A stretch of 64,000 bases of DNA, taken from NCBI GenBank assembly GCA_013306675.1, contig JABLUY010000137.1, positions 1 to 64,000 of the forward strand, read 5' to 3'. The notes under the pieces are model-generated. The model ran no database searches and was not told the origin of the DNA. It saw only the letters and a list, made by a program, of their open reading frames with translations. This stretch comes from Thraustochytrium sp. TN22 (Eukaryota; Sar; Bigyra; Thraustochytrida; Thraustochytriidae). Below are positions 3,001 to 26,136 of the stretch, in pieces. The position numbers were made by a program, and so were the translations under genes. Positions within the stretch are counted from its first letter, which is position 1. Each line of letters begins with the position of its first letter.

Positions 3001-5794
3001 CGTTTTCTTCCTGGGCGACCTAAACTACCGCGTGGAGCTTGACTTCAAGGCGGCAGCCAAGGCCACCACGCTGCGCAACTACCACCTGCTGCACCTCAAC
3101 GATCAGCTCGAGCACCAGCTCCGCGAGGGCACGGCGTTCTACGGCTTCACTTCGCCGCTCCCAGAGTTCGCGCCAACGTACCGCTGGAAGCGCGGTCGCC
3201 GCGAGCTCAGCAACAAGAAGGAGCAGCCGCCCTCGTATACAGATCGCGTACTCTGGCACTCGTATCCGGGATCTCGCGAAGCCGTCAAGCTGGACCGCTA
3301 CTTTAGCGCGGATAGCCTCATGATCTCGGACCATCGCCCGGTCGGCGCGTTCTTCACGCTCTCGCTGCGCCATGAGTACAGCTGGCCCATTCACCCGCTC
3401 ACGACGCGCGAGATCACCATGCGCCCCGTGACCGACGCCCCTGCCGAGTCCTCGCTCGTGAGCGGCCGTCACCACGGAGACCTCTCGCAGGCCGCGCAGC
3501 TGGAGGCAATCGTGCAGCGCGAGCAGGGCGTCGGGCATTTACTGCCGCACAACCTCCTCCACCCGCACCTCCACCATCAGCAGCAACAACAGCAACAGGA
3601 GCGCCCGGCGGGCGAGGGCCCGCTCGGTGCCAATCAGCACGTGGTGCACCATGGCACCGGGTCGACGTTGCGTCGCATCGCCGAGCGGGTCAGCAAGCGT
3701 GGCGGCGCCTTAATGGGCGTGAGCAAGCAGGCGCACAAGAGCCGACCCGCCGCGCTGGCCCCGCCCGAGGCGGTGGTGAGCGGACCGCGCCGTCAGCAGG
3801 CCATGATGCGCGAGGACGAGGGCGGCTGGACCTCGCGCGATGGCAACTTCTTCGTGGCGCCCCGCGAGGCCATCGGACTGGGCGCCCCGCGCATCCGACT
3901 CAACAACGTCGTGGTGAGCCTGAGCTCCGCGGACGACGGCACGCAGCTGCCTTCGTGGGTCCAGCTCTGCATCGCCTCGCCCGTGCTGCACCAAGTCGAG
4001 TGGTCCGCCGCGGCGGCCGGCACGGAGCTCAGCCCCGACGCGCGCAGCCGCCAGAACCGTACGCAGCGCTTCGCGTACCAGGGCATTGGCGCCTTCCAGG
4101 ACCTCTATTACGCGCTCGACCCTCAGATCGGCTTGCCCGTGCTCAAGCCGGTGCTCTTCGACCCCATCTTCCTCAAGTCGCAGCACCTGCTCATTCAAGT
4201 CGTCACGCCGTCGGGCAAGGACGAGGAGGCGCTCTCGCTGCACCACATCATGCTCACCTCGAAGGACCCGGCGGAGATGCAGGAGATCGTGTCCACGCTG
4301 CCGCGCTCGCGCCATGCCGCCTCGGTCAACGGCCAGTGCAGCATCTCGCTGCGGCACGTCGTCCACGCCGTCGGCCACCTCGTGGCGCGGAGCGGCCTTG
4401 AGGCCTGGACGGCGGCCAAGGCGCCCACTGTGTCCTTCTCGGAGCCCATTATCTGCGGCGGCTTGCAGATCGGCCGCATCATGGGCGAGATCTGCATTCT
4501 TCCGCCCACCGATGACGCGCGCCGCTCCGGCCGCGGCCTGCCGGGCTACGTGCCGAGCCCGGCCTCGGAGGAGGGCGTCTTCGGCAAGCTCGAGCTCCCG
4601 CCGCTCGTGCGCCAGGGCTTTGCGCAGGTCAAGTACCGCAAGGCGTACAGCCGTGTCTCCACGCGCGTCTTCGTGAGCCTCTACGAGGACGGCCGCACCT
4701 TTCTGACGAGCAAGCCCATCTCCTCGCGCGCCGCCAAGCACATGCGTCCCACCAACAACGTGCTGGCCGTGCTTGACATGCGCCACGTCGCCATCGACGA
4801 CCATCGCGAGCTCTCCTTTGTGCTCTCCGACTGCCGCCCGCTCGGCCCGGACGTGCGCGGCCTTGTTACCATGATTTGGGCCGTTGACTCACGGACCGAC
4901 AAGCTCGCCTGGATCGAGGCGCTCGAGTCCGTGCACAGCAGCACGCCCTTCCCGGCCGAGCCCGCGGAGCCGGAATCGGAACCCCGCCTGGGCATGAAGT
5001 ACGGCGCCACGCTGGACAGCTCGGCCTCCTCGCATGGCTTTGACTCGCTGCCGCGGCCCAACTTCAACATGCAAAAGGCCCAGTCTGCGGATGCCGCCAC
5101 GGCTGCTTCGGACCGGCACCGTCCCGAGCGGCGCCGCCATGGGCCGCCTCGCTCTGGCGTCCGCTCTGCGTCCCCCATGGCGCGGCGAGGCAAGGCTTCC
5201 AGCGAGGACGCCAGCGCGGATGGGTCCTCGACCCCGGACTATTACCGCACTCCGGTTGCTGGTGCCAGGCGCCATCACATGGCTGAGCTGCACGCGGCAT
5301 TCGACTCAACCGACCCCAGCGCGCTCGACGAGCTCGACGACGAGTCACTCACGGCGCTTTCCGAGGACGAGGGCGCCGGCGAGTTCGCGAACCGCCTCAC
5401 GCTCGCAGTCACCCGCCTCGCGCGTAAATCTGGCTTCCGCGCAGGAGTTCGGCATCGTGACTCCGACGAAGACGTCGATGACGGCGGCTTTGATGATGAC
5501 GACGATGATGATGGCGACGAGGACGACGAGGAATACCCTCCGCCGCCTCCACCGCGCGAGAGCGACGGATTGGCGTACCCGCCGCCGCCGCCGCCGCCGC
5601 CTGGATCTGTCTATCCCTCGCGGGCTCGCGGCAACATGGCGTCGCCGCCGCCGCCGCCCCCGCCGCCCCCGCCGATGGACGATGAAGGCACTGAGCTTGA
5701 CGAGGAAGACTCGTCGGGGCGCGGCAGCTCGGCCTCGCGGGGTCGCGGTCGCTGGACACTTACCTCGGTCCCACCGCCGCCCGGCAACGCGTAG
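80..5794 (+). CDS. Multidomain inositol polyphosphate 5-phosphatase
   Basis: Predicted 1904-residue protein that removes the 5-phosphate from phosphoinositides or soluble inositol phosphates at membranes. The catalytic domain (about residues 785-1095) has the family signatures: FVGTFNVGD, GLQEV, GNKGGVGVGF, NAHLSAQQHK, FLGDLNYR, PSYTDRVLW and SDHRPVGA, so it looks active. The N-terminal third holds two or three beta-rich segments that look PH-like (about 45-130, 290-360, 515-600), separated by acidic and Ala-rich linkers. After the catalytic domain come a C2-like stretch (about 1270-1400) and a PH-like segment (about 1510-1615, ending DKLAWIEALESV). The tail has poly-Asp and three poly-Pro blocks, possible SH3/EVH1 ligands. 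The start is the first ATG after an in-frame TAG at 35-37. The 5-phosphatase call is firm; the accessory domains are read by eye. Confidence 0.9.
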   Translation: MWRGGAGAGVGAGAAAAGAGAGGGGGGEHEHEHEHEFEVQEQGASRGTTLLKVVSVGGKHKLMLLDDFGSTTATLTLRDVSSIYVVDEQTVRLKKTGSILFKVTLSFSNSAVLEQFLDLVRELRPALERLITFKGNNRQRYNQHDADEDEDTMQVTTSLRDDFADRTEPDRPASYVHAPQDAAGGAFAGSLDSDSEESEDDEDDEDTVMRAKPRQSYADREDGQEAAGEKARETGVQRAEAEREAEEAEVHAKARTMKKTLERTLRRDMLKAEWQQLQVRRYNQFGQGEPASLLVSTKRGLLQLISNITGDVLAAYRLNEIVALVQHGYNAVGLSLYLRTDGTALSEEDVVHLVEALPGDRAATEAREAAVAAAAAAAAERAASRGGASRRERTASPPPPSSPREHAVQEATDEAGEATAPAAPRASASRSRLSLRTRAQRTRSLTLVTAKATRSSARLPLRRVLENLMFESHDELRDVSKLLKRVLSGRVKVEMRRTLNSSSCGVDFQGGWSVFRGVYERKKGLRTLAVNPFLGHIYLFKRTRAELITMNSKQKFAVSVVKPAQLITRLVPKHLTRVEVDFQGVNLDPEQVDDDPRAFGNRVGAFDTVDAGVRSLEESQRDEWKFVCLEAPEEAQARANSRRLSAVAESSHRHPVKRMSVQRSRRHEVANAAPTPADVAATAAAGADGDEVEAFRFSFDCRTTAEANRLLAALNALREASGRKNLVEESQRHASREHTGSAISRTLRRARHSVKHVPATPVLDIADAAFLQQAAWAGVEQAWFASDARVFVGTFNVGDASAPKSSGALNEWIPAPPDVSTPLGARADAEAFRIYAIGLQEVSSKYDEWQRAISAHLGPRYERAISVRMWEVVLLVFVHLDELPHVNSYTAGSVKTGLRLGVGGVQLGNKGGVGVGFRWRDVPVCFINAHLSAQQHKVSERNLNYTQIMAKLHLQGTAARVDAFPLEPTLCFEHVFFLGDLNYRVELDFKAAAKATTLRNYHLLHLNDQLEHQLREGTAFYGFTSPLPEFAPTYRWKRGRRELSNKKEQPPSYTDRVLWHSYPGSREAVKLDRYFSADSLMISDHRPVGAFFTLSLRHEYSWPIHPLTTREITMRPVTDAPAESSLVSGRHHGDLSQAAQLEAIVQREQGVGHLLPHNLLHPHLHHQQQQQQQERPAGEGPLGANQHVVHHGTGSTLRRIAERVSKRGGALMGVSKQAHKSRPAALAPPEAVVSGPRRQQAMMREDEGGWTSRDGNFFVAPREAIGLGAPRIRLNNVVVSLSSADDGTQLPSWVQLCIASPVLHQVEWSAAAAGTELSPDARSRQNRTQRFAYQGIGAFQDLYYALDPQIGLPVLKPVLFDPIFLKSQHLLIQVVTPSGKDEEALSLHHIMLTSKDPAEMQEIVSTLPRSRHAASVNGQCSISLRHVVHAVGHLVARSGLEAWTAAKAPTVSFSEPIICGGLQIGRIMGEICILPPTDDARRSGRGLPGYVPSPASEEGVFGKLELPPLVRQGFAQVKYRKAYSRVSTRVFVSLYEDGRTFLTSKPISSRAAKHMRPTNNVLAVLDMRHVAIDDHRELSFVLSDCRPLGPDVRGLVTMIWAVDSRTDKLAWIEALESVHSSTPFPAEPAEPESEPRLGMKYGATLDSSASSHGFDSLPRPNFNMQKAQSADAATAASDRHRPERRRHGPPRSGVRSASPMARRGKASSEDASADGSSTPDYYRTPVAGARRHHMAELHAAFDSTDPSALDELDDESLTALSEDEGAGEFANRLTLAVTRLARKSGFRAGVRHRDSDEDVDDGGFDDDDDDDGDEDDEEYPPPPPPRESDGLAYPPPPPPPPGSVYPSRARGNMASPPPPPPPPPPMDDEGTELDEEDSSGRGSSASRGRGRWTLTSVPPPPGNA

Positions 5795-6034: not shown

Positions 6035-7288
6035 CTATGCGCCGGCAACCACGCAGGCGGAGTGATCCGCGCCGGCGGCCACGGCGACAACCTTCTCACC
6101 GTCCAGCGAGTGAACCGGATGAGGCGTGGTGCGGTAGGCTGCTACAGACTCAAGACTATCGCCAGCAAGCTGGCCATTCCTGCCCTTGCCGAACGCGAGG
6201 ACCGCACCGTCCTCCATGAGCACCAGAGTGTGCGAGCCGCCGCATGCCACCTGCTTCACCTTACGGCCCTTGAGCGCGTGCACCTGGGTAGGCACAGACA
6301 GGTCGGTCTTGGAGCCGTGGCCCAGCCGGCCGTCTGATCCGCAGCCCCACGTGAATAGCGCGCCGTTCGCGTCCACCGCGGCGCAGTGCATGCTGCCGCA
6401 CGAGACCTGCACGACGCGCTCCCTATAGAGCGCCCGCACCAGCTGCGGCTCCGTCTGGACGCGCGCGTTGCTGCCCGTGCCAAGGCCCAACTTGCCGTAG
6501 TCGTCGTTGCCGCACGAGTACACCTTGCCAGACTCCGTAACGATAAGCAAGGCTTCCTCTCCCGCCGCCACCTGCGCGGCCTTCTCGCCGTTCAGCAGTT
6601 TGCTATCGATCGCCTTGAGCTGCTTCACCGCGTCGTAGGAGCCATGGCCCAGCACGCCTTGCCGCCCATTGCCGCACGTGTACACACGGCCGTCCTCTCC
6701 CACCGCTGCCGTAAAGGTGCGGCCGCACGCCACATCAATGAAGCGGACGCCCGCGGGCTCCAGCACCTCGTCGGGCCGGGTCGTGTCGCCCTCGCGCCCG
6801 AGCTCACCCGTCCAGTTGCGCCCGGCCGTCCACAACCGGCCCTTGCTGTCGAGCGCTGCCATGTGAAACTCGCCCAAGCTCAGCTTGTGCACGCCCTGGT
6901 TGCTCAGCTCTGGCAGGTGCACGGGCAGCGCGCAGTTCTCCACCGAGTCGCCCTGTCCGATGCTGCCGTGCATGGACCGCCCAAACGTGTACACCTCACC
7001 GCCGGTGCTCACGAAGCCAGAGCTCTGCCCAAAGGCCGCCACGGACGCCACCTCCACGTCGAGGTCGTCGCCCACCACCTCCGGCACGGCCACGTCCACG
7101 GACGACCCGAGCCCGAGCTGCCCGAAGTTGTTCGAGCCCCAGAGCCTCGCGTGCTGCAGCCCGCCGTCACACGACGCGCTGCGCGGCTCGTCGCCGCTCC
7201 ACGCGCTCGCTAGGGCCGCCAGCCCGCCGCCGCCGGCCAGGCCTGCCGCCGCGCGCCGCGCGACCGTGCCGGCGCCGCGCGTCCACAT
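6035..7288 (-). CDS. RCC1-repeat (seven-bladed propeller) protein
   Basis: 417-residue protein made of RCC1 repeats. Seven repeat cores are visible, each a strand-turn of the type LWGSNNFGQLGLG, VYTFGRSMHGSIGQG, LWTAGRNWTGELG, VYTCGNGRQGVLGHG, VYSCGNDDYGKLGLG, LFTWGCGSDGRLGHG and VLAFGKGRNGQLAG. That predicts a complete beta-propeller. The N-terminus (about 30 residues) is Arg/Ala/Gly-rich without acidic residues and could be a mitochondrial presequence, as in RCC1L/WBSCR16-type proteins; this is inference. Classical RCC1 is a nuclear RanGEF, but nothing here singles out that role. It starts at a good ATG (complement of 7286-7288) and converges on the 5-phosphatase gene. Confidence 0.85.
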   Translation of the reverse strand: MWTRGAGTVARRAAAGLAGGGGLAALASAWSGDEPRSASCDGGLQHARLWGSNNFGQLGLGSSVDVAVPEVVGDDLDVEVASVAAFGQSSGFVSTGGEVYTFGRSMHGSIGQGDSVENCALPVHLPELSNQGVHKLSLGEFHMAALDSKGRLWTAGRNWTGELGREGDTTRPDEVLEPAGVRFIDVACGRTFTAAVGEDGRVYTCGNGRQGVLGHGSYDAVKQLKAIDSKLLNGEKAAQVAAGEEALLIVTESGKVYSCGNDDYGKLGLGTGSNARVQTEPQLVRALYRERVVQVSCGSMHCAAVDANGALFTWGCGSDGRLGHGSKTDLSVPTQVHALKGRKVKQVACGGSHTLVLMEDGAVLAFGKGRNGQLAGDSLESVAAYRTTPHPVHSLDGEKVVAVAAGADHSACVVAGA

Positions 7289-9282: not shown

Positions 9283-12200
9283 ATGGCCGCGAGGGCGCGG
9301 CCTACGTGCGCGGCGACGGCCTCGCCAAGGCAGCCTCCGCCAGCGCGCAGGCGGCGGCCGGGAGTCCTGCTTTCGGCGCTGCTCGTGGCGTCTTGTGGCG
9401 CGAGGCTGGCACACGCAGAGACGGCTGGGACGCGGGACACACTGAGCTGCGACGTGGACGGCGGCTGCACGAGCGCGCACGGGCAGACCAATGGAGGCAA
9501 TCTGACCATCGTCGTGCTGGAGGCGACTGGCGTGCCAGATGCGGACGGCTTTGGGCCCTTCGCAGGCCTCTCCGACCCGTACGTGGAGGTCGTGCTGGGC
9601 AACGTCTCGCGCTCGTCTTCGGCCGTGGAGAACTCGCTCGAGCCCGTATGGCCCGCCGACGGCAACGTGCTCTGGCTCAACACGCAGGCATCAGGCGAGA
9701 GCATGACGCTGCGCATCTGGGACGACGACGCGGGTCTCGAGTTTGCAGACGACTTGCTCTCCGAGGTCACCATCCATGTTCCGGAGTGTTCGTGCTTTGA
9801 GCTTTCCGAGGGGGAGGATGCAGAGTACACGTGCTCGCGGACGCGCTGCGTGGAGCGGGTATGGGTGCCGCTCACCGAGGATGCGGACTGCTCCGGGCGC
9901 ACGACCTCGCCGTGGAGCGACTCCGCGGACCGCGAGGCCTTTTGCGTTTTACTGGAGACAAGAATCGAGCCGTTCAAGATCGAGGTGACCTCCGTCGTCG
10001 AGCCCTGGGCTGCCACCACAGTGACCACCGCGGCCCATTCTGAAACAGATAGCACCGCGGAGCGCTGGGGGCGCATGTACGCGGGCGACAACACGGCGCT
10101 GGACGCCGGTTATCCGAGCTTTGTGGATCAGGCAGGCGGTCTCATGCTGCAAACCAACTTGACGCACGCGACGCTGGCCGATATGGGCACCTATCTTTCC
10201 TTCACCGCCAATCTTGACGCCACCGTCTACGTGTACACATATCAGCCCGAGACAGGTGAGTTTTTCACGCCCTCTTGGCTGCGCGATGACACCGTCTGGG
10301 CTTCGACGGCGTCCTATGTGACCATGGAGGGCAACGCCGACGTGAGGTACCGCGCGAAGCGCACGAGCCTCACTGCAGACGTCCCCGTTAGCATCGGCTA
10401 TCCGGTTCACGGCTTTGCCGACGCAGACGGCAACGCACAAGCAGTACCAGACCCGATGCACATGTACGTGGTTGTGGTTGTCATGACCACCTTCCAGGAG
10501 GTAGACGAGACGCCATACAGGACCGACTTCGAGAAGGATACCTTCGTGCCGCTCGTGCTGGAGACGCTGGTACTGGTGCTGCCGTTCGCCGTCATGCAGC
10601 GGTCCTTTTTCCGGCGCGTCGCCTGGCGCATGGATCGCATCGAGAGCGGCCTCCTGCAAGGCGCCGCGCGTGATGAGCGCACCAACCTCATCACTCTCGC
10701 GCTCAAGCCGTGGTACCTGAACGGATCGCCCGCAAACATTGACTTCCGCCGCAACCTGTATTTCCTCACCCTCGGCGCGCGCATGGCGCTGCTCGTGCCG
10801 GTCGGGCTCACCTTCTCGTACAGCCTGGCTATGGCCTTTGTGGCGGTGCCAGCGTCCGCCGGCTTGGCTGTCTTCTGCGTGGGCAACGGACTCGCCATCA
10901 TCGGCTACGCTTTTATCACCTGGAAACAAAGCGGCTGGCGCATGTCCCGCGCCCGCCTCGCAGGGTTCTCGCTGGGCGCCGCCTCCATCTACCTCTTCCT
11001 CTTCTTGGCCGTCTGCTTCGACATGCGCGTGCTGGACGCAGGCCAGCCCTTCTCCATCTTTAGCCTCTCCTGCGTAGCCTTCACGCTCAACGCCGTGCCC
11101 ATGATCGGCATCTTCTTCCTCGACAACGACCAGCTGCACCAGGCCTTTGCGCAGCTGCAGCGCGTGGTGAACAAGCACTCCAAGATGAGCGCCATCAAAA
11201 ACAAGTTCAACGCGCTCGGCACCATGGGGCTCAAGATGGCCCTGCTCAACCACGCTGCCAGCGAGAAGGCGGCGGCGGGCGACGCAGGCAAGCCGCCAGG
11301 CGGCGAGACTGCCAAGGTAAGCGGCGCCAAGGACCGCGCCCGCGCCAAGAAGCCGTTCGGCTCGCTCCTGGGCGGAGTCTTCACGATCGACGACTCCATC
11401 GCCGAGTTCGCCCTCTCCGACACGGTGCGCCGCTGGTTCACTGGCGGCCGTCGCCGCCGCCGCCAGCTCGTGCACCGCCTCTACGCCTGTGCGCTCGCGG
11501 TGCTTTTCGCGTACGCGTTCATCGTCTACACCAAGTGCGACGAGAAGTACCGTGCGCAGGGCTTTGGCTTCGCCTTTGCGGTCATCGTCCTCGACACGTC
11601 GCTCTTCGCGCTCCTGCGCGGCCCGTGCATGTGGGGCACAGGCAAGTACGTCACGCTGAGCTTTCTCGGACGCGCCACGCTCGCGCTCTGCGCGGGCGAG
11701 AACTGGATCGTCGGCATCGGCCTCGCATACTTCTTCTACGGCCTCGCGCTCGGCCAGGAGATCATCAATCAGCGCATGCAGACCTTCAGCTCGGATCGTG
11801 CGGGCTCTATCGCGTACTTTGGCCAGAGCCAGATGCGCCGCAAGCGCCGTTTTGACGTCAGTGCCATGCCGGAGTTCGTGCTCGCCGCGCTCAGCTTCTT
11901 CTTCCTCCTCGCGCTGCTTGCCTACGTCTTCGCCTACGACGACGCAGATTCTACCATGCCTACGATGAGCGTCCTAGGCCAGGAGTGGGACCTGTGGATC
12001 TTTGGCGTCGCCGCCTTTGTCGTGGTCACAGTCAGCGTTGTGCTAGGGCTCGCCAAGCGCGCGCTCATGCTCCAGCGCCAAGGCCTGCTCCGCACGCGCG
12101 TTTACCTGCTCTTCCGATGGTTCAGCTTGCCGATGCAGCTCGTTGCGCTCGCCGAGCTCCTTGTGGTCATGTCTGGCCTACTCCTCTACGCCATGACCTC

Positions 12201-15200
12201 CTCCACCTTCATCTTTGTCTCCTCGGTGTTTTTCCCGCTCATCTTCGCCGCCTCCCTCCGCGTGTACCTGCAGTGGAAGGCCAACGACTATCGCGTTTTC
12301 CAGCGCGCGAAGCTTCGCGTGCCGGATGACGATGACGATGACGACGATGACGATGATGATATCGACGATGATGGGGAGGAGGACGACCTCGGCCAGCAGG
12401 ACTCCTCGGAAGGGCCCGTCCACGGCCGGCTGCCCGGTCTGGCCCGCAAGAAGCGACGTTCGAAGCGGCGTATCGCGGACGACGATGACGACGACGACGA
12501 CTTCGACGACGACGAGGAAGACGACGACGAGGAGGACGAGGACGAGGAAGATGATGCCGTGAGCAAGCTGCAGAGCTCGCTCCGGGGCAACATCAAGGCG
12601 CTTAAAGAGAAGCAGAAGGAGGTGCGCGGCCGCCTTAGCATGCCCAAGCTCCCCTTCCGCAAGCCGATGCACCTTGCCCAAAAGGTCGATCGTTCCTTTG
12701 ATGAGGACGAGGATGAAGAGGAGGCCGAGAAGGCTACCAAGAATGCTGACGCCGATGGCGAGAGGAAGGAAGACGAGACGGGCGGCAAGGACGAGGTAGC
12801 CATGCCAGAAAAGACGGATTTAGCCGAGCCCGACCCGAAGGGGACTGCAGAAACCGGCGAAAGCGGTGGAGCCAAGGTCGAGGCTGTCGAGGACGACGCC
12901 CAGGCTGTCGAGGCCAAGGCACCGGACGCTTCGGCGGCCAGTGATCAGCAGGCGTCAGGCTGCGAGGATGAGGCCAAGGAACCGGCGTGCAGCGCTGAGG
13001 CTAAGGAGCCGTCATGCAGCAGCGTCGAGGCCAAGGACCCGGCGTGCAGCAGCGCTGAGGCTAACCCGAACGAGCCTGCGGAGGCCGAAACTGTCGCGTG
13101 TGAGACGCCCAAGAAGCGGCGGCCGCGGCGCTTCAAACCTCGGGGGCTGCCCAGCGTGAAGCGGCCCGCCTCTTTCAAGGAGGCCAGGGAGCTGGCCGCG
13201 CAAAAGTTCTCGAGCGCGAAGGCGAAGTGGCAGCGCCTTCGCGCAAAGGTCGTGACCAAGCTCAAGATATGGCTCGAGATCAGCGAGGAAGCGGACCCGG
13301 TCAAGATGACCGATATCGAGGCGCTTTGGCACGGCAAGCTAACTGTCGTGGACTACATGATGCTTCGCAGCATGGGCCTCGTGATGGCGCTGGTGGTTTT
13401 GTACAGCATGGTCATTGGGCGCACAGAGCAGAGCCTGCGCTGGGGCAACGCAGTATGGTTCGTCTTCTTGCTGCTGGTGTTCTCCTTGGTGCCGATGCGC
13501 AAATTCTACGGGACGCAGCGCATCACGCCTGACATGGTGCAGTGCTTCAAGGTGTCGGTCTTCCTCGAGGCGGTAGGAAGCCTCATCGTCTTCGTGGATA
13601 TACTAGAGGCGAGCGTGTCGCGACCCGGCACGCTCTGGCTCGTGCTTGGCTTGTTTCTGTGGCCGGCACTCCTGCTCTCGTGCGCAATCCTCCTCATCTG
13701 GCACGACGCGGACTGGAAGCTGACACCAGACCTGCAGCGCGTGCTGACGCTCTGCTTTCGGTACTTTTACTTTTGCTCGTTCATGGCCTTTATCTTCGCG
13801 AGTCCCATGGCGGGCGTCCTCTCAACGTTGCTGACCAGCATTGCAGTGGTGGTCATCCACCTCACGGAGGTTTGGGCCGCGAGCGGCTTCTTTCTGCCGC
13901 TGCGCTACCAGTTCGCGCTCAATGCTGCGCTGAACAGTGGATCGATTGGATCCGTGGCGCTGGTCCTGCTGCTCCAGAGCAACGACGCCATCTTCTTCGT
14001 ACTGTGCCTCGGCTTTCTGTGTCAGCTGGCGCGGCTCGGCATTCAGCTCGTGTCGCAGCTGCGCACCGGGTCGCGGAGCACGACCTTCTTCTTTTCGACC
14101 TTTATTTTCCCCGTGTACTGCCTGGATCCGATCTCAAACGACCTCGTGGAGCGCAATGAGGTTGGCATTCTACTCTTCAAGTTGCAGCTGACTGTCCTCC
14201 TGTGGGGCGTCTCGTGTACGGCGCTGGTGGATCCGCTGGACGTGGGTGTGGGCTTGGTGTCCTTCTCGTATGTGGCCGCGCTGACGCTCATCAGCTACCT
14301 CGTGTCGCGCACGCCCATCTGGATGGCGAGCGCCACGCTGTGCGTTGACGAGCAGGAGATTAAGGAGGCGGCCAAGCAGGCGCGCGCAGTCTTCGAGCAG
14401 CGCCGCGAGAACTTTGCCATCACATGCGAGGAGTACGAGCAGCGTGACCGCGAGGAGGCCAGGCTGAAGCAGGAGCTGGACAAGTTTGCGAGTTGGAATA
14501 TGGACAAGAAGGTGCGAAGCATTGAGTACGACCAGCGCTACACTGCCAAGGAAATGGTCGACGTACTGGGCAAAGCGCAGCGAAAGCTCTATCTGGACCG
14601 GCTCGGCAAGCCTCGTCGAGACCGCGCGCTGGACCTGCGGACCAGCTTTGCGGACGCGCTGGAGACCGCCAAGGGCCCGCTCGCGCCGCTCGTTTTGGGT
14701 GGCGCGCTGCGCACCTTGTACGAGATGTACAAGGATCCGGCATCGCTGCGCCGCAAGAACCGCGCCAAGTCGCGCAAGGGCCGTCGCGGCCAGGTCCACC
14801 CTGAGGGCGAAGCCGCGACGAAGATCCTAGGCGATGATTCCTCGGACGACGGCCTCGAGGCGGACCAGTTGGACCGCCTTGTGGACGAGCTGGGTCCCGG
14901 CGGCGACAAGCTCAAGATCTCCGTGAAGGACTGGGATCTTACGAGTGCGGATGACGACCTGGGCACGGTGGAAATCGACCTGGATGAGCTGGAGCCGGAC
15001 ACGATCCACATCGACTGGTACGAGTTAGACAGCGAGAACGAGAAGATCGAGGTGACAGGGGAGCTGCAGCTGCAGGTGGAAGTGGCGAACGTCTTTGGCG
15101 GCGAGTCGGGTGACCTAGACCTTCAAGTCCGCGTCGTTGTGCTGCGCGCGCGCGGACTGCGCGCGGCTGACAAGGGCGGGACCAGCGACCCATTCTGCAT

Positions 15201-18200
15201 TGTGGAGTGCGGCACATTTACCCGGCGCACACCAGTCGTGTACAGCACTCTGGAGCCCGACTGGACGACGTGCCGCGGCGGCGGGCGCTTCACGTTCCCG
15301 CCTGTAGACGACACGCTGCAGGTCGAGATTCGTGACAAGGACCTCTTCAAGTCAGACTTGCTGGGCGGCGTCGACCTATACCTGCCCGATCTGGTCGCCG
15401 GCGAGGAGCTGGTGGACAGCTACCCGCTGGAAGGCGGCCGCGGCAAGCAGCGCGCAACTGGCGAGGTAAAGCTGGCCGTCCTGCTGAGCGCGCCGGTCAA
15501 CGAGTATGGGCTCAAGGCATCCAAGGCGAGCCTTCAGGTGACGGTAGTCTCGGCCAAGGGCCTGCGCGCCGCAGACAAGGGCGGGACGAGCGATCCGTTC
15601 TGCGTGGTCAAGTGCGGCATGGACGCCTTCTCCACCTCGGTGGTGCGCAAGACGTTAGACCCCAAGTGGATTGAGGGGTACACGTTCAACCCGGACCCGT
15701 TCGCTGAGGAGGCGCAGGGCGCCGAGGGTGAGGACGGCGGCGATGACTTCGCGCAGGTGGAGATGCTGGACTCGTGGAAGCTGTACCAGCAGTTGCCGCG
15801 CCTGGACGCGGCGCTGGCGCGCGAGTACGCAGAGGAGATGCGCGCCAACACGCTGCTGCAGATGCTCGTGGTGGTCGCGAGTGAGGGGCGCAAGTCCAAG
15901 GAGGCTATCCTCTTCCAGCGTTTTCTGCGTGAGTACCGCTTCAAGCTGCTTGCCAACAAGATCGAGCCACCGCGCAGCATCTTTCGGTCCAAGTCGTGGG
16001 CCACGGTGGACGTCTGCCTCGTGGCGCTCTGGCTGCTGCGGCTGTCACCGGAGCAGCGCGAGCGCTTTTACGCGCTCAAGCAAGTCTTCGCCAAGGAGGT
16101 TGCGGCCGCCGAGGCACAGCGGCAGCAGGAGGACGACCAACTGGCCAGTCACGCGCAGCAGCTGGAGGCCTGGGCTGCGCAGCACGACCTGGCGGCGGCG
16201 CGCCGTCAGCAGGAGGACTTCGTGCAGCGGCGTGCGGCGCGCGAGCTGGCGAGCGGCAAGCCTGATGCGGATGCCTTCGACGAGCCGGAGCTTGTGGTGA
16301 ACGCGCGCGAGATGCTCGCGGAGATCGCGGCGGGCAAGCACACCCGCCAGGTCCAGCTGGAGGGCATGGCGGAGCCGGCGCCCATGTTCGAGGACCCGGA
16401 CTTTCCGGCGACGCCGGCGACCGTGGGAGGCATCGCCAACGAGGCATACCTGGCGGGCTGGAAGCGCGCGCGCGCCATCAATCCGGGTGTCGAGGTCTTC
16501 GCGGGAGGGACGGACCCGGATGATGTGGAGCAGGGCGTGCTCCATAATGGTTGGTTCTTGTCGGCGCTCGCGATGCTGGCGGCGTCCGGGTCCGTGGGCG
16601 ATGACCAGGTCGACCCGCTCATCGACAACCTCTTCGTGGTCAAGGCTCGCAACGATGTAGGCGCCTATGCGCTTCGTCTGTACAAGGGTGCGCACTGGCA
16701 GCTCATCTTGGTGGACGACCAGTTCCCGATCCTACAGGCCCGGCACAAGACGGAGCGCAATGCGGGCGTGGCCGTCAGCCATAGTCTTCGGTTCGAGGAG
16801 ATGTGGGTTTCGTTGCTGGAGAAGGCTTACGCCAAGTCCTTTGGCACCTACACCATGTTGGAGAACGGCTACGTGCACCAGGCGCTGCGCACGCTGACAG
16901 GGTTTGACGCGGAAGAGATCTTCTTGCACCAGGCCACGCAAGGCCCAGCGCGCACGCGGCTCTGGGAGAAGCTGCAGCGGTACTCGCGCAATGGCTTCCT
17001 CATGGGCTGCGGCACGATCGCCAATAACGCCGCGAACGCGGAGATGCTTGACTCGGGCCTGGTCTTTGGCGCCATCTATGCCATCTATCAGGTGCGCGAT
17101 CTGGACGGCCACAAACTGCTGCAGCTGCGCAACCCGCCGAGCGTGCGCACCGAGTGGAAGGGTGACTGGGGCGATGCCTCGCCGCTGTGGACGACGCGGC
17201 TCAAGAAGCGACTGGGCTGGACCGACGACGAGGACGACGGCACCTTCTGGATGAGCTTCGACGACTTCTGCCTCGCGTTCCGCTCGCTCTACGTGTGCCA
17301 CTACTACGACCCGCGCATCTGGCGGCTCGCCACGCTCTCGGGCTCGTGGTCCGGCCCCACCGCGGTGGGCCTGCCGAGCAAGCACAACCCGGAGGCGCGT
17401 GTGCAGCGCAACCCGCAGTGGGTCATTGACGTGCAGCGCCCGGTCGACATGCACATCAAGATCTCCCAGACGCACGCCGACGGCACTCTGGTGGACCTGG
17501 CGCAGCCCTTTGCGGCGCTCCTGCTGCGGTCGCCTGCGACGCGCGCGCGCCACGTGCGCCGCGTGCGTTCCCTGGCGCGCAGAGACCTCGTGGCATGGAC
17601 CGGGAACCCGGAGCGCTGCCACCAGCGCCACATGTACGTCTCCTTGCAGCCCGGGTACTACATACTCATGGTGTCGACCTACGCTGCGGACCAAGAAGGC
17701 CCGTTTTCTATCGAGGTGCACTCCTCCTTCGCCGTCGGCATCAGCCAGCTCTATCCGCGGCTGGAGAAGGTGCATGTACACCGCACCAAGCTGGTGCAGC
17801 CGAGCGTGGGCGTGGCCGCCACGCGCCGCGCGCGACTGCAGCGCCGCTTTCTGCTGACGCTGCAGCGCGCCATGGACGGCGCCGAGAAGCTCAAGGACCG
17901 GGCCGAGGTGCTCTCGGAGAAGTATATGAAGGTTCTGGACAAGAAGATGCAGCAACGTCTAGGCGTGAACCTGAACGCCTTCTTGCCGCCGCGCAGCGAC
18001 GATGCCTCGGATAGCGAAGGTGAGGAGGATGGAGAGAACGCTGAGCGCAGGCCCAGTGATGGCAGCGTCAAGCCCACGAACGAGGAGCTGGAGGCCATCC
18101 AGGACGTCATGTCAGCCAAGACGGAGGTGGAGGACGACCACGGTTTCGCGCGGCGCAACCCGCCGTCGGAAATTTCTGAGGTGGCCATCAACCAGATCTC

Positions 18201-18438
18201 CAGACAAGTCTCGGAGCAGGACGAGGTCATCTCGCATTCCGATCAGAAAGAGGCGGAGCTGGCTGCGACGACGACAGCTGCCGCCGACTCTCCATGGGTG
18301 GAGGCCTTCGACCCGGCGTCGTCCGTGCCCTACTACTGGAACCGGGAGACTGGGGAGACCCAGTGGGAGCGGCCTGAGGGCTTCGTCTCTGCTGCTGCTG
18401 ACTCGCAACCCGCGCCGGGTGACGCTGGCGCCCGGTAG
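9283..18438 (+). CDS. Giant membrane C2/pseudo-calpain/WW protein (DEK1-like layout)
   Basis: About 3051 residues in one exon. Order: signal peptide (core LLSALLVASC, cleavage near AHA); an N-terminal C2-like domain (9490-9800); about ten TM helices (10530-12270); a poly-Asp/Glu and Lys linker (12325-13260); eight to nine more TM helices (13350-14320); a charged helical region; two C2 domains sharing GLRAADKGGTSDPFC (15120-15400, 15530-15720); a calpain cysteine-protease-like domain (16390-17330) with a C2-like domain III after it; and a WW domain near the C-terminus (WVEAFDP to TQWERP, 18295-18372). Plant DEK1 and protist relatives also join many TM helices to a calpain core. Here the catalytic Cys position reads Gly (HNGWFL, codon 16549-16551) and the catalytic His position reads Ala (FGAIYAI, codon 17071-17073); the Asn is kept (LRNPP, 17131). 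It is therefore probably not a protease. ATG 9283 has a GCCATGG context and best fits the signal peptide; ATG 9214 is an alternative. Confidence 0.9.
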   Translation: MAARARPTCAATASPRQPPPARRRRPGVLLSALLVASCGARLAHAETAGTRDTLSCDVDGGCTSAHGQTNGGNLTIVVLEATGVPDADGFGPFAGLSDPYVEVVLGNVSRSSSAVENSLEPVWPADGNVLWLNTQASGESMTLRIWDDDAGLEFADDLLSEVTIHVPECSCFELSEGEDAEYTCSRTRCVERVWVPLTEDADCSGRTTSPWSDSADREAFCVLLETRIEPFKIEVTSVVEPWAATTVTTAAHSETDSTAERWGRMYAGDNTALDAGYPSFVDQAGGLMLQTNLTHATLADMGTYLSFTANLDATVYVYTYQPETGEFFTPSWLRDDTVWASTASYVTMEGNADVRYRAKRTSLTADVPVSIGYPVHGFADADGNAQAVPDPMHMYVVVVVMTTFQEVDETPYRTDFEKDTFVPLVLETLVLVLPFAVMQRSFFRRVAWRMDRIESGLLQGAARDERTNLITLALKPWYLNGSPANIDFRRNLYFLTLGARMALLVPVGLTFSYSLAMAFVAVPASAGLAVFCVGNGLAIIGYAFITWKQSGWRMSRARLAGFSLGAASIYLFLFLAVCFDMRVLDAGQPFSIFSLSCVAFTLNAVPMIGIFFLDNDQLHQAFAQLQRVVNKHSKMSAIKNKFNALGTMGLKMALLNHAASEKAAAGDAGKPPGGETAKVSGAKDRARAKKPFGSLLGGVFTIDDSIAEFALSDTVRRWFTGGRRRRRQLVHRLYACALAVLFAYAFIVYTKCDEKYRAQGFGFAFAVIVLDTSLFALLRGPCMWGTGKYVTLSFLGRATLALCAGENWIVGIGLAYFFYGLALGQEIINQRMQTFSSDRAGSIAYFGQSQMRRKRRFDVSAMPEFVLAALSFFFLLALLAYVFAYDDADSTMPTMSVLGQEWDLWIFGVAAFVVVTVSVVLGLAKRALMLQRQGLLRTRVYLLFRWFSLPMQLVALAELLVVMSGLLLYAMTSSTFIFVSSVFFPLIFAASLRVYLQWKANDYRVFQRAKLRVPDDDDDDDDDDDDIDDDGEEDDLGQQDSSEGPVHGRLPGLARKKRRSKRRIADDDDDDDDFDDDEEDDDEEDEDEEDDAVSKLQSSLRGNIKALKEKQKEVRGRLSMPKLPFRKPMHLAQKVDRSFDEDEDEEEAEKATKNADADGERKEDETGGKDEVAMPEKTDLAEPDPKGTAETGESGGAKVEAVEDDAQAVEAKAPDASAASDQQASGCEDEAKEPACSAEAKEPSCSSVEAKDPACSSAEANPNEPAEAETVACETPKKRRPRRFKPRGLPSVKRPASFKEARELAAQKFSSAKAKWQRLRAKVVTKLKIWLEISEEADPVKMTDIEALWHGKLTVVDYMMLRSMGLVMALVVLYSMVIGRTEQSLRWGNAVWFVFLLLVFSLVPMRKFYGTQRITPDMVQCFKVSVFLEAVGSLIVFVDILEASVSRPGTLWLVLGLFLWPALLLSCAILLIWHDADWKLTPDLQRVLTLCFRYFYFCSFMAFIFASPMAGVLSTLLTSIAVVVIHLTEVWAASGFFLPLRYQFALNAALNSGSIGSVALVLLLQSNDAIFFVLCLGFLCQLARLGIQLVSQLRTGSRSTTFFFSTFIFPVYCLDPISNDLVERNEVGILLFKLQLTVLLWGVSCTALVDPLDVGVGLVSFSYVAALTLISYLVSRTPIWMASATLCVDEQEIKEAAKQARAVFEQRRENFAITCEEYEQRDREEARLKQELDKFASWNMDKKVRSIEYDQRYTAKEMVDVLGKAQRKLYLDRLGKPRRDRALDLRTSFADALETAKGPLAPLVLGGALRTLYEMYKDPASLRRKNRAKSRKGRRGQVHPEGEAATKILGDDSSDDGLEADQLDRLVDELGPGGDKLKISVKDWDLTSADDDLGTVEIDLDELEPDTIHIDWYELDSENEKIEVTGELQLQVEVANVFGGESGDLDLQVRVVVLRARGLRAADKGGTSDPFCIVECGTFTRRTPVVYSTLEPDWTTCRGGGRFTFPPVDDTLQVEIRDKDLFKSDLLGGVDLYLPDLVAGEELVDSYPLEGGRGKQRATGEVKLAVLLSAPVNEYGLKASKASLQVTVVSAKGLRAADKGGTSDPFCVVKCGMDAFSTSVVRKTLDPKWIEGYTFNPDPFAEEAQGAEGEDGGDDFAQVEMLDSWKLYQQLPRLDAALAREYAEEMRANTLLQMLVVVASEGRKSKEAILFQRFLREYRFKLLANKIEPPRSIFRSKSWATVDVCLVALWLLRLSPEQRERFYALKQVFAKEVAAAEAQRQQEDDQLASHAQQLEAWAAQHDLAAARRQQEDFVQRRAARELASGKPDADAFDEPELVVNAREMLAEIAAGKHTRQVQLEGMAEPAPMFEDPDFPATPATVGGIANEAYLAGWKRARAINPGVEVFAGGTDPDDVEQGVLHNGWFLSALAMLAASGSVGDDQVDPLIDNLFVVKARNDVGAYALRLYKGAHWQLILVDDQFPILQARHKTERNAGVAVSHSLRFEEMWVSLLEKAYAKSFGTYTMLENGYVHQALRTLTGFDAEEIFLHQATQGPARTRLWEKLQRYSRNGFLMGCGTIANNAANAEMLDSGLVFGAIYAIYQVRDLDGHKLLQLRNPPSVRTEWKGDWGDASPLWTTRLKKRLGWTDDEDDGTFWMSFDDFCLAFRSLYVCHYYDPRIWRLATLSGSWSGPTAVGLPSKHNPEARVQRNPQWVIDVQRPVDMHIKISQTHADGTLVDLAQPFAALLLRSPATRARHVRRVRSLARRDLVAWTGNPERCHQRHMYVSLQPGYYILMVSTYAADQEGPFSIEVHSSFAVGISQLYPRLEKVHVHRTKLVQPSVGVAATRRARLQRRFLLTLQRAMDGAEKLKDRAEVLSEKYMKVLDKKMQQRLGVNLNAFLPPRSDDASDSEGEEDGENAERRPSDGSVKPTNEELEAIQDVMSAKTEVEDDHGFARRNPPSEISEVAINQISRQVSEQDEVISHSDQKEAELAATTTAAADSPWVEAFDPASSVPYYWNRETGETQWERPEGFVSAAADSQPAPGDAGAR
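12325..12570 (+). repeat. Poly-Asp/Glu coding low-complexity tracts
   Basis: Two GAC/GAT/GAG-rich runs inside the giant gene encode about 14 and 30 mostly acidic residues in the loop between the two membrane blocks. They are in frame and flanked by Lys/Arg-rich sequence, so they read as a flexible charged cytosolic loop. They may also be length-polymorphic microsatellites. Confidence 0.8.
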
Positions 18439-18606: not shown

Positions 18607-21513
18607 CTATGAAGGAGGTGGAGGAGAAGACTCAGTGTCAGAAGAGAGCCAGCCGGCACTGATGAGATGGTTTTGGAGCACCTGGAGTGCAGGCGCGCCC
18701 ATGCGGCCGTTGTGACCGCAAGTGAGTGGCAGCAAGTGCATCTTGGGTGCTTCACGCTGCGTCGGGCGGCGACGGTGCTCCTCGACGCGGCGCTGCAGGT
18801 CCGCCATCTTGCGCAGACCGTCCGCGAGCAGGGCAAAGGCAGCGGGGACATCGACTTCGAGGCTCGAGCAGGCCGCGAGCGAGGCGCGGTCGTCGAGGAT
18901 GGAGGCGAAGATCTCGGCGGCGTGCGAGAGTGGCACGGGGTCCATGGCGCCGCAGACGCCGCGGAAACCCTTCACAGAGTACATGGTACGGCGGCCCTGG
19001 GCAATGTCCTTGGACGAGACGATGTCTTTGATGGCCGGCGCCCCGGGGCCCCACACGAGCAGGTTGGCGAGCCAGTCCTGCAGGGAGACCGCCCAGGTCT
19101 CTGCAGCACGGGCGAGGCTCGCGGCCGAGGCCGAGGCCGCACTGCTGGCGGCGGCCGTGGCGGCTGCGGCCGTGGTCGCGGCCGAGGCGGACGCGGCCGG
19201 GGCCGCCGCGGCGGGCTGCGCCGCGGAAAATTGCTGCCAGCCGTGGTAGAAGCGCGAGAGCGGGCTCCCGAGGCATTCGCCACAGCGGCCGTCGGCGAAC
19301 CAGAGAATGTGGACTGCGGACGAGAGCAGCTGCACGAGCGAGCGCAGGTGCGGTGCGCGCGCCGCCTGGCGCTGGGCGCGCAGGACGTCGACGCAGGCGA
19401 GCCCAAAGGAGACGGCAAATTCAGAGTCGCGCACCCAGGTCAGATCGAGCTGCGCCTCGGCCGCGGCGGGCGCGCCGAGGAGCGCGGCCGCCGTGGCCGC
19501 CAGGCGCTGCGCGTCGGCGGAACCGCTAGTGCCGGGGTCCGGTCGGCAGGCGGCGTGCACGATCTTGCGCGCCGTGCCGCTCTTGAGGGAGGCGTTGTTA
19601 GCGATGATCTCGTCGTTCGGGTCGCACGTGCAGACGCGGTAGAGCGATGCGGGCGCCGCGAGGAAGTTGCTTGCGTTGTCGGCCTCCCAGCCGATGTAGC
19701 GCAGCGCGGTGGCCGCCCAATTGCCCACCATATTTGATGCGGTGGTGGGCAGATCGCAGAGTGTGCGGTCCGCGACGAAAAAAGAGATGCCGAAGCGCTC
19801 CGCGTGGCGCGCCAGGTGGCAGGCCACGACGCCCCCAATGGACTCTGCGTGGACGCCAATCCAGCCAGGCTGTACGCCTTTGCGCTGCGTCAGGTACTCG
19901 ACGAGCGCCTCGCCGTCGCGCTGCAGCGAGTACGGCTTGGGCCAGCCTTCGCTGCGGCCGTAACCGCGGTAGTTGAAAAGGAGCACGTTGAAGCCGAGCT
20001 CCGTGTAAAAGTATACCCACTGGTTTTGCATGCCGGCAAACTCGTAAATGCCGCAGTTTGGGTTGCATATCAGCACCGTGCGCTGATCGGCCGCGAAGCG
20101 CGCGTCACGCGCAGGGATGAACATGGTGTCGATCTGCGCGCCACGGTAGCCGGAGACCCACGCCTGTTCCCCGTGGAGCCGCGTCTGCAGGCTGGCGCGC
20201 ATAAAGTCCAGGTTGGCAACGGCGGGCATGGGCCTGCGCGCTGCGCGGAAGTCCTCCAGCATCACGGCCAGCTTACCGCCCGTGAGCGCGAGCGTGCCGC
20301 CCTCCGCCGCGGCGTGAACCGCGGCCTGGACCTCCTCGCTCTCGTCATCCTCGCCGCTCTCCACGTCGGTCTCAGTCTCGGTCTCGACGCCAGGGTCCGC
20401 TGCGTCCGCGTCCGCGTCCGCGTCCGCCTTGAGCTTAGGTGCGAGGCCGCCCAGCTCGATGTCGCCGTTGTGGCCCGCTACGGCGTCGCCGCCGCCGAGC
20501 GGTACCTGGAGTGGGGCCTCCTTGACTTCCTCGAAACACACGGCCCGCTCGGCGCACTCCTTGATGGCGGCAGCCAGGTCGCCCATGATTAGCCAGGGCG
20601 CCTCGCGCAGCTCGCTCTCGGGGCGGCGCGAGGGCTGGATCGCCGGGAGCTCGAGCGGCGAGTCCGCGCACACCACGAGCGCCGCGTGGGCCCCGAGTGC
20701 GTCCACGCTGGGCGCTACGGACGCCTGAAAGGCGCCCGTCCCGCCAATCTGCAGGGAGTGCAGGGCGGGCAGCACGACGAGCTCCTCAAAGAGCGCGTCC
20801 AGCTCTGCCACCTGCTCAAGCGCCTGCAGGAGCTCCTCGCCCCCGTACTCTAGCTTGCCGCCTGGTTGCGCGTCCCGCACCGCGCGAAGCGTGGCCGCCA
20901 GCGGGCGCAGCGAGCTGACGGCCGCTTGCGTTCGCAGCCGGCTGAGCTCCGTGAGGCGCTCCTTGAGCTGCGGCGCAGGGAGTACGCGGGGACGAAGTGG
21001 GCCTCCATGCTGCTGCAGCATGCGCACGAGCAGCCTCATAAGGTGCACGTAGACCTCGAGGTGCTGCACGAGAGACTTGCGCACCTCGCGCGCGACATCG
21101 CGCTCCAGCCCGCGCTGCACGTTCGGCACCATGCCGGGGTACACGATGGCGCGTGCCACGTTGAAGACCAGTGCATACAGGCCAACTGCGACGGCCGCCA
21201 AGAACCCAGGGAGCGTTAGCAGCCACACCAGGCCCGCGAGTACCTCGCCTACGCCGATGAAGACCCCGTTCACCGTCGCATACACCACCGCTGTCCTGCG
21301 CGGATCTCGCACGACAGCCCGCAGGACCCCGGGCCACATTCTCTGCGCGAGCGACGAGCACGCCTTGGCGCCGGCCCCGTGCAGCTGCGCCTCCTCCAGC
21401 CGCAGCTGCCGCGCCTCCTCCTGTTGTTGTTGTTGTTGCTGCTGCAGGTGCAGCTGCTGCAGCTCGAGGTCGCCTTGCTGGCCCCCGGCCCTGGACGTGG
21501 CCGCCTCCGTCAT
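18607..21513 (-). CDS. Membrane-anchored alpha/beta hydrolase (ABHD12/16-like)
   Basis: 968-residue serine-hydrolase-like protein. It begins with a poly-Gln segment, then two or three hydrophobic helices (about 80-125, VYATVNGVFIGVGEVLAGLV onward) that should anchor it in a membrane. A long helical and acidic linker follows. The hydrolase core (about 465-620) has TVLICNPNCGIYEF as the oxyanion strand, LLFNYRGYGRSEG, and a nucleophile elbow HAESIGGVV with Ser558. The usual first Gly of GxSxG is Ala here. CGHNGRMG near the C-terminus supplies a plausible catalytic His; the Asp is not obvious. An Ala/Ser/Thr-rich insert lies in the C-terminal half. It resembles ABHD16/BAT5 or ABHD12 lipid hydrolases acting on lysophospholipids, but the size and inserts are unusual. 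It converges on the calpain-like gene and diverges from TCF25. Confidence 0.8.
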   Translation of the reverse strand: MTEAATSRAGGQQGDLELQQLHLQQQQQQQQEEARQLRLEEAQLHGAGAKACSSLAQRMWPGVLRAVVRDPRRTAVVYATVNGVFIGVGEVLAGLVWLLTLPGFLAAVAVGLYALVFNVARAIVYPGMVPNVQRGLERDVAREVRKSLVQHLEVYVHLMRLLVRMLQQHGGPLRPRVLPAPQLKERLTELSRLRTQAAVSSLRPLAATLRAVRDAQPGGKLEYGGEELLQALEQVAELDALFEELVVLPALHSLQIGGTGAFQASVAPSVDALGAHAALVVCADSPLELPAIQPSRRPESELREAPWLIMGDLAAAIKECAERAVCFEEVKEAPLQVPLGGGDAVAGHNGDIELGGLAPKLKADADADADAADPGVETETETDVESGEDDESEEVQAAVHAAAEGGTLALTGGKLAVMLEDFRAARRPMPAVANLDFMRASLQTRLHGEQAWVSGYRGAQIDTMFIPARDARFAADQRTVLICNPNCGIYEFAGMQNQWVYFYTELGFNVLLFNYRGYGRSEGWPKPYSLQRDGEALVEYLTQRKGVQPGWIGVHAESIGGVVACHLARHAERFGISFFVADRTLCDLPTTASNMVGNWAATALRYIGWEADNASNFLAAPASLYRVCTCDPNDEIIANNASLKSGTARKIVHAACRPDPGTSGSADAQRLAATAAALLGAPAAAEAQLDLTWVRDSEFAVSFGLACVDVLRAQRQAARAPHLRSLVQLLSSAVHILWFADGRCGECLGSPLSRFYHGWQQFSAAQPAAAAPAASASAATTAAAATAAASSAASASAASLARAAETWAVSLQDWLANLLVWGPGAPAIKDIVSSKDIAQGRRTMYSVKGFRGVCGAMDPVPLSHAAEIFASILDDRASLAACSSLEVDVPAAFALLADGLRKMADLQRRVEEHRRRPTQREAPKMHLLPLTCGHNGRMGAPALQVLQNHLISAGWLSSDTESSPPPPS

Positions 21514-24547: not shown

Positions 24548-25735
24548 TTACTTGCGCCGCGTTCGTTCCTCTCGAAGCAGGGTCGTGAAGTAGTTGGCGA
24601 GGACCTGGGCCGACCATGAGCGCAGCTCGCCGGTCGGGAAGTCCAGGCTGTGGCCTCCAGCGTTGGTGCGCAGGAGCACCAGTTGATCGCTGGCCTCGAA
24701 CTCGTCGTCCTGGATGTTGGCGCCAGACGCAAGCGTGTCGTTGCGCGCCACGACAAAGAGCGTTGGCCTCTCGATGCGGTGCAGCCACTGCCCGCAGCTC
24801 GCGTCGCGCAGGTACGCGGACGTGGACGCGTATCCGTGCGTGGGCGCGAATGTGCAGGAGATGAGCTCACGGAAGGTGCGCACTTTGGTGATCTTGTCCA
24901 GGTCATAGACCTCTGGTGCGGTCGCCAGCTGGGCGCGGTAGCTAAGGTACACATTTCGGAGCGCGCGAGTAAGGAGGCCATTCATGAGGCGACCTTGGAG
25001 GCTTGTCTCAATCTGCAAACCGGAGATGAGGAGGTCGGTGGACCCGCTCACGCACGAGGCGCCATCCAGGAGGCAGGCTGCCCCATCCTCGCCCATGAAC
25101 TTGGCAAGGTAGCAAGCGCCGATGGAGTAGCCAGCTGCGAAGAAGCGGCGAGCCTTGGGCCGTGCCGCGTGGATGTGTTGCACGACACGACGGATGTCCT
25201 GCGTGAAGCCAAAGTCCTCAAAGAACGGCGCGACGAGCTCGTTGCCGTTGCGGCCGCGCGGGTTCAGGCAAGCCACCAGAAAGCCTGCGTCGGCAAGCTC
25301 GCGCGCCGCCCGCCGCATTGTGCCGCTTTTGCTGCTGGCCGCGATCGAGGGCACGACCAGGACGACTGGCGCGTCCTCGCGGTCTTCGCCGAGCCAGTCG
25401 AGCGAGCAGGTGCCCGAGGGTACGAGCTCGGGGCAGCACGTGGCGCCTTTGGGGCGCTCCATTGCAGGGAGCTCGATGGTCTCGCGGCGGAAGCTCCCGC
25501 CGATGTCGTCCTCGCGCGGCATCTTGGACGGCACGAGCGTTTGGACCAAGCCCGTGGGCGCCCACCACGGCTCGGCATACGACGCGGCCACGGTGCCCAA
25601 TCCCTCGGCAATGCGCTGCGACTGAGTGCTGGAGACCTTGTAGGCGAGCCTCGTGGCGCTTGAGGCGCGACGCTGCACCAGTCGCGCAGCGAGCAGGCCC
25701 GCCGCGGTGGTGCACGCGGCCACAACGGAGCTCAT
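24548..25735 (-). CDS. ABHD1/3/EMB8-like alpha/beta hydrolase, copy A
   Basis: 395 residues, first of seven tandem paralogues. The N-terminus is a hydrophobic anchor (AACTTAAGLLAARL), so the enzyme probably sits on a membrane. The fold markers are VVLVVPSIAASSK (oxyanion strand), ACLNPRGRNGNEL, nucleophile elbow GYSIGACYLAKFMGEDG, acid in FVVARNDTL and histidine in NAGGHSLDFP. The Ser-Asp-His triad is complete. ABHD1/3 and yeast EEB1/EHT1/YMR210W relatives act on acyl esters or phospholipids; the substrate here is unknown. The usual HG after the oxyanion strand is PS here. A GTG extension was rejected for the ATG at the complement of 25733-25735. A block of roughly 280 bp (25127-25408) looks identical to copy D. 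Confidence 0.88.
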   Translation of the reverse strand: MSSVVAACTTAAGLLAARLVQRRASSATRLAYKVSSTQSQRIAEGLGTVAASYAEPWWAPTGLVQTLVPSKMPREDDIGGSFRRETIELPAMERPKGATCCPELVPSGTCSLDWLGEDREDAPVVLVVPSIAASSKSGTMRRAARELADAGFLVACLNPRGRNGNELVAPFFEDFGFTQDIRRVVQHIHAARPKARRFFAAGYSIGACYLAKFMGEDGAACLLDGASCVSGSTDLLISGLQIETSLQGRLMNGLLTRALRNVYLSYRAQLATAPEVYDLDKITKVRTFRELISCTFAPTHGYASTSAYLRDASCGQWLHRIERPTLFVVARNDTLASGANIQDDEFEASDQLVLLRTNAGGHSLDFPTGELRSWSAQVLANYFTTLLREERTRRK

Positions 25736-25983
25736 CGCCACCTACGCACCGACGCCGACGCAACGAGCGGGGAGGCCTTGTGCGACACCTCGCGAGCCGC
25801 AGCGACCGCGGCAGCGACCGCCGCAGCGCGCGAGTGCTCAAGCTCGAGCTCGAACGAGCGTCCGCTGCGCTTGCTTGCGTCAGGGTCTGGCGCGCATTAC
25901 CGTGGCCGCCGCGCTCAAGGGCTGGGTGCACTGCACTGCCTCCAGTGCCAGTGAGAGACGGACTCGGAGCCAAGTGACAACCG

Positions 25984-26055
25984 GCGCAGAGTGATGAACG
26001 AACCGGCTGAACCGGCCCGAGCGAGCCGGCTTGCGGCGCTGGGCAAAAGCCTTTG
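25984..26055. repeat. Array flank repeat R1, copy 1
   Basis: GATGAACGAACCGGCTGAAC followed by CGGCCCGAGCGAGCCGGC. Near-identical copies lie at 28784-28860 and 30977-31053, each beside a hydrolase 3' end, and a partial one at 26690-26733. It marks the edge of the duplicated unit. Confidence 0.85.
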
Positions 26056-26136
26056 CACACGGCAGGGCAGTTGAGATGAATCACGACTCTTCTGTGCTGG
26101 TAGCTCTCTCAGGCTGATGACTGACTGACGCTTAGG

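Follow-up and report, generated by a model that had tools for sequence, protein, structure and literature searches.

A membrane-anchored calpain of Thraustochytrium sp. TN22 whose catalytic Cys and His are replaced by Gly and Ala and whose calcium side-chain ligands are complete

The window, i.e., the whole stretch of 64,000 nucleotides from Thraustochytrium sp. TN22 that was analysed, carries the gene of a 3051-residue protein. We read it, with reasonable rather than high confidence, as a Type 4-style membrane-anchored calpain whose core has turned into a pseudo-enzyme and which would act as a Ca2+/lipid-gated membrane scaffold. An active calpain protease requires the residues Cys-His-Asn, and in the aligned sequence of the window core the respective positions are occupied by Gly, Ala and Asn. 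A possibly missing active site and a non-proteolytic role are already published for other calpains, as described in parts of three earlier studies (PMC3563603; PMC10762896; PMC13413365), and the window protein fits this known kind. What is new here is that PC1 contains no possible nucleophile, that the cleft Trp has been lost and that the Ca2+ side-chain ligands are complete.

The gene is located on contig C41 of a genome of 37.9 Mb in 453 contigs, and the large genes found in the window, including this one, are single open frames (Table 1). GC3 ranged from 0.79 to 0.89 in 11/11 bins across the 9283-18438 frame (ten of 900 bases and a last one of 156), which fits one unbroken coding sequence, while the GC content of the window DNA measured per 2-kb step is about 0.62-0.74. 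Among the neighbouring genes, seven alpha/beta hydrolase ORFs with a mutual identity of 57-92% lie in tandem on the minus strand (24548-38804), and another hydrolase ORF (18607-21513) gave no blastp match to this array at 1e-3.

Table 1. Coordinates of the membrane calpain gene, its domains and key residues, and of neighbouring genes in the window.
Feature	Position	Strand	Basis or remark
Whole gene, putative membrane pseudo-calpain	9283..18438	+	single open frame, 3051 aa, ATG to TAG
Signal-peptide-like hydrophobic segment, aa 27-45	9361..9417	+	Kyte-Doolittle 1.52; inference
N-terminal C2 domain, 91/104 model positions	9496..9786	+	Pfam C2 E 6.3e-11
First transmembrane group, aa 420-994	10540..12264	+	hydropathy
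Acidic 365-aa loop joining the two membrane groups	12265..13359	+	102 D/E, 61 K/R
Second transmembrane group, aa 1360-1674	13360..14304	+	hydropathy
Full linker C2 domain, aa 1948-2049	15124..15429	+	Pfam
CysPc, the calpain protease core, aa 2369-2673, lacking the catalytic Cys and His	16387..17301	+	Pfam and alignment
Asp2414, Ca site 1 ligand (Asp96 of CAPN2)	16522..16524	+	alignment
Gly2423 (GGT) at catalytic Cys position	16549..16551	+	alignment
Glu2506, Ca site 1 ligand (Glu175 of CAPN2)	16798..16800	+	alignment
Ala2597 (GCC) at catalytic His position	17071..17073	+	alignment
Asn2617, catalytic Asn retained	17131..17133	+	alignment
Pro2619 at cleft Trp position (NPW to NPP)	17137..17139	+	alignment
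Glu2624, Ca site 2 ligand (Glu292 of CAPN2)	17152..17154	+	alignment
Asp2631, Ca site 2 ligand (Asp299 of CAPN2)	17173..17175	+	alignment
Calpain beta-sandwich (CBSW / Calpain_III), weak	17341..17718	+	22.1 bits searched alone, cut-off 21
C-terminal WW domain, aa 3003-3031	18289..18375	+	Pfam E 6e-10
Exo_endo_phos2 phosphatase-like neighbour	65-5791	+	
RCC1 repeats neighbour	6035-7288	-	
TCF25 neighbour	22510-24489	+	
Hsp33 neighbour	41452-42432	+	
SNF2 helicase neighbour	44673-48695	+	

The chain opens with a signal-like segment and a C2 domain, continues with two membrane groups joined by an acidic loop and then a linker with C2 domains, and closes with the calpain core, a weakly matched beta-sandwich and a WW domain; written from the N- to the C-terminus, the layout assigned from sequence is C2-MEM-Linker(C2s)-CysPc-(weak CBSW)-WW. 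The membrane topology is predicted from hydropathy and charge. Kyte-Doolittle segments numbered 23, 20 and 18 at thresholds of 1.4, 1.6 and 1.8, respectively, and the set at 1.4 takes in the signal-peptide-like segment; the preliminary description of this DNA gave about 18-19 helices. By the same kind of prediction, the N-terminal C2 domain probably lies on the outer or lumenal side of the membrane. In the linker (approximately aa 1690-2360, between the membrane part and CysPc), partial C2 matches at approximately aa 1873-1920 and 2081-2143 flank the full domain. The three C2 domains originally proposed thus become four stretches in Pfam at a permissive E <= 1, namely one near-full and N-terminal, one full in the linker and two partial beside it. 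The WW domain was recovered as described. The calpain domain III-like region is marginal, since Calpain_III scored 22.1 bits (E 1.9e-4) with the region searched alone and 15.0 bits, under the cut-off of 21, with the whole protein; without CBSW the layout would be Type 3 rather than Type 4. No NCBIfam family was matched for the protein, and Pfam searches with its predicted extracellular, membrane and linker pieces added no family below E 0.1.

The calpain core is as recognisable as had been stated, with Peptidase_C2 matched over model positions 1-297 of 297 (E 3.2e-59). The active site was read from an alignment with rat m-calpain (PDB 1df0), to which the window core is 31% identical across 329 columns, and with eleven cores of the same genome, two of which are divergent. 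The printed sequence of 1df0 has Ser at the catalytic Cys position, which we take to be the known mutant. The alignment confirms the changes of Cys to Gly and of His to Ala, with Asn kept, at residues 2423, 2597 and 2617. As a bacterial control, 86 loci were used (80 selected from 153 GTDB hits, plus six on viral contigs); all of them matched and 55 contained a full-length core. Against the viral contigs, the window core alone found no relative, and a ten-core alignment found the six loci, 0/6 with a full-length core. The catalytic columns of the 55 full-length bacterial cores hold Cys in 53 (one Ser, one Thr), His in 54 (one Ser) and Asn in all 55, and the register of Gly2423 and Ala2597 is therefore firm.

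The loss extends beyond what was first described, as the cleft Trp is also gone: two places past Asn, Trp is found in 55/55 bacterial and 9/9 well-aligned own-genome cores, and Pro in the window core. Motifs around the active site have changed from GDCW to HNGW and from GHAY to GAIY. A Cys in register elsewhere, which had been named as evidence against a dead core, does not occur anywhere between aa 2245 (the nearest upstream of Gly2423) and aa 2576 (the first downstream), so none is able to substitute within PC1. Nevertheless, the calpain fold is predicted to be kept. Single-sequence prediction of the core gave a pLDDT of 35, and a 55-row alignment of the window core and 54 of the 55 bacterial cores was used for AlphaFold2 instead, resulting in a pLDDT of 78.1 and a pTM of 0.82. 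The predicted fold matched 40 PDB chains at E <= 0.001, and all 40 were calpains.

The list of Ca2+ ligands of the calpain core follows PMC4057710 (Table 3 and a figure legend). The window protein has each of the side-chain ligands Asp96, Glu175, Glu292 and Asp299 (numbered as in CAPN2), and the full set also occurs in one of the nine well-aligned paralogues, L010. Counted by strict letters, one of the four is found in one membrane paralogue and none in the other, and the Cys-less, well-aligned cores L015 and L014 have 1/4. In the column of Glu323, a backbone Ca2+ ligand according to the same parts of PMC4057710, the window protein has Thr. Three ligands were found in 45/55 bacterial cores (44 of these gapped at Asp299) and all four in 2/55, with Asp96, Glu175 and Glu292 retained in most and the Asp299 column usually a gap. 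Three ligand positions are thus conserved across calpains generally, and their conservation may be partly structural. From the aligned ligands we infer that the window core binds Ca2+.

In the genome, PF00648 matched at least 14 stretches, which were read as 12 genes including that of the window. A search for an active paralogue had been suggested; L011 (C97) and L017 (C316) are two membrane calpains of about 20-22 hydropathy segments each that keep Cys and His and carry Asp for Asn (LRDPW), at L011 4203-5282 and L017 5277-6683. Cys-His-Asn is intact in C409, C435, C224, C192 and C266, while the catalytic positions read Gly-His-Asp in C33 and Ala-Trp-Asp in C429. The divergent cores of C135 and C1 have no Cys at the catalytic place, the start of C135 lying outside the aligned segment and being read by eye. 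On this reading Cys is missing in 5/12 calpain genes. L014 and L015, with Gly and Ala for Cys, have no large membrane part.

In blastp, C97 and C316 are similar in their membrane parts (E 2.9e-16), and the membrane part of the window protein has no significant match to either (best E 1.5). The window protein was left unplaced by a core tree of 19 rows, which included 8 of the 55 bacterial cores and excluded the divergent C135 and C1; we therefore do not claim that it shares an ancestor with the two membrane paralogues. Separately, the cyanobacterial core L034 (Okeania sp.) carries Ser for Cys and clusters with rat m-calpain with 97/98 support. In addition, L010 (C435, 1087-6111, minus strand) is a single frame of 1675 aa in which a calpain core and beta-sandwich are joined to a HELP motif and beta-propellers of the EML type; it retains Cys-His-Asn as well as 4/4 Ca ligands. 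The terms WD40, EML and propeller are absent from the main text of PMC3563603.

It is very improbable that a sequencing error or a decaying pseudogene accounts for the changed active site. A single base separates GGT from TGT at the Cys position, but the Ala codon GCC is two bases away from a His codon, the neighbouring residues of both motifs are changed as well, 3052 codons run unbroken with even GC3, and a like loss has been reported from brown algae and oomycetes. Sequencing error at these two sites, which had been considered earlier, is thus unlikely. Alternatively, the core might still be a protease that uses a shifted, non-canonical Cys/His pair; the relevant passages of Fletcher et al., 2026 (PMC13413365) suggest either this or no protease activity for brown algal and oomycete members. 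Asn is kept in the window core, and the shifted His may be present as His2532, which sits 65 residues before Ala2597, the distance from shifted to canonical His in that study being 66-67 columns; however, His2532 was mapped onto the published column by spacing only. This residue (VH preceding ALxxLTG) occurs in 3/3 membrane calpains, 0/7 other own cores aligned and 2/55 bacterial cores. Since the two membrane paralogues carry it along with a normal His, a replacement role is unnecessary, and His2532 is unlikely to be a relocated catalytic His. The lack of a PC1 Cys, together with the full Ca2+ side-chain ligands, argues against the shifted-triad idea for the window protein, and we consider continued proteolysis improbable.

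Two further explanations accept that the core is inactive. Acting as a pseudo-protease partner, the window protein could regulate L011 and L017, e.g., through substrate competition or pairing. The similar number of membrane segments in these paralogues, their retained Cys and His (Asn being Asp) and the His2532 common to the three membrane calpains would suit such a relationship, which we nonetheless find doubtful, as the membrane parts of L011 and L017 are alike and differ from that of the window protein, and as the core tree leaves the latter unplaced. The core may also be unresponsive to Ca2+ and serve only as a folded spacer or protein-binding block; a parallel would be the trypanosomatid calpain-like domains, which are, in the part of PMC11322530 concerned, inactive for want of Cys and likely to make protein contacts. 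Ca ligands could persist for structural reasons in that case, but 4/4 side-chain ligands in the window core against 1/4 in the Cys-less L015 and L014 make a mere spacer unlikely.

A Type 4-style pseudo-enzyme gated by Ca2+ and lipid remains our preferred reading, and the window protein probably senses calcium without cutting proteins. The polytopic part would anchor the protein, with the N-terminal C2 domain outside and the remainder cytosolic. Upon a rise of Ca2+, the linker C2 domains would be driven onto acidic lipid and the calpain core would close around its two Ca2+ sites; the change in core shape could then expose or hide partner-binding surfaces instead of leading to cutting, and some partners may be bound via the WW domain. 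The outcome would be the proposed scaffold. The preliminary description had offered a non-proteolytic scaffold or a Ca/lipid-responsive membrane protein, of which the protease-dead, Ca/lipid-responsive version is the best reading, and a scaffold function is put forward conditionally. More tentatively, the protein may have evolved from a protease into a pure Ca2+ sensor by losing nucleophile, base and cleft Trp while keeping the two-site switch, sensing and cutting having been split from an ancestral membrane calpain shared with the paralogues. If this is true, closure of the calpain core would be a signal in itself, and the membrane paralogues that have Cys and His but have lost most Ca2+ ligands would do the cutting. 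The same genome also encodes these Cys/His-bearing membrane calpains, and the window protein would be a clean case for a calpain core acting as a Ca2+ switch without catalysis.

A number of studies bear on such proteins. Catalytic residues are lost in many protist calpains and in over 50% of the variants in Emiliania, Ectocarpus and trypanosomatids, according to sections of Zhao et al., 2012 (PMC3563603), which also describe stramenopile C2-TML-CysPc calpains, those of Albugo and Phytophthora having a WW domain. Types 1, 3 and 4 may miss active-site residues and have a putative non-proteolytic function, and plant DEK1 is the sole functionally studied membrane-anchored calpain, as stated in portions of PMC10762896. 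In the passages of PMC13413365 on brown algal and oomycete calpains, where the window protein is unnamed, the members examined lack the canonical Cys and His. At the Cys position, brown algae have S/T/A/G and oomycetes S/A/G; at the His position, A/S/T occur in the two groups alike, and most brown algae keep Asn. The same passages leave it open whether the membrane calpains of stramenopiles act as proteases, as shifted proteases or as pseudo-enzymes. A literature search for calpain and thraustochytrid found, by title and abstract, nothing on such a protein.

To our knowledge, mammalian calpain-6 and the trypanosomatid calpain-like proteins have no polytopic membrane part. They resemble the window protein in their Cys-less cores with non-proteolytic roles, as reported in parts of PMC3563603 and PMC11322530. 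DEK1 (Type 2), to which the protein had been likened, shares the membrane part with a long loop followed by linker, CysPc and CBSW; however, the DEK1 type keeps Cys-His-Asn where the window protein has G/A/N, and the Type 2 layout given in the same portions of PMC10762896 is without the N-terminal C2 and C-terminal WW domains that the window protein has. The likening to DEK1 is not fully apt. Type 4 as outlined there has the same domain order, CBSW being marginal in the window protein, which shows the N-terminal C2 domain (E 6.3e-11), 18-23 segments with a linker and the WW domain (E 6e-10), while C2 domains within the linker are not part of that outline; oomycete Type 4 members are likened to it by published description. 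Finally, the brown algal and oomycete calpains, as portrayed in the passages of PMC13413365, share with the window protein the change of Cys and His to small residues, an Asn that most brown algae keep, and C2 domains with many membrane segments. The shifted PC1 Cys noted in those members is absent from the window protein, which carries a WW domain; the brown algal layout given there is C2-TML-CysPc-C2.
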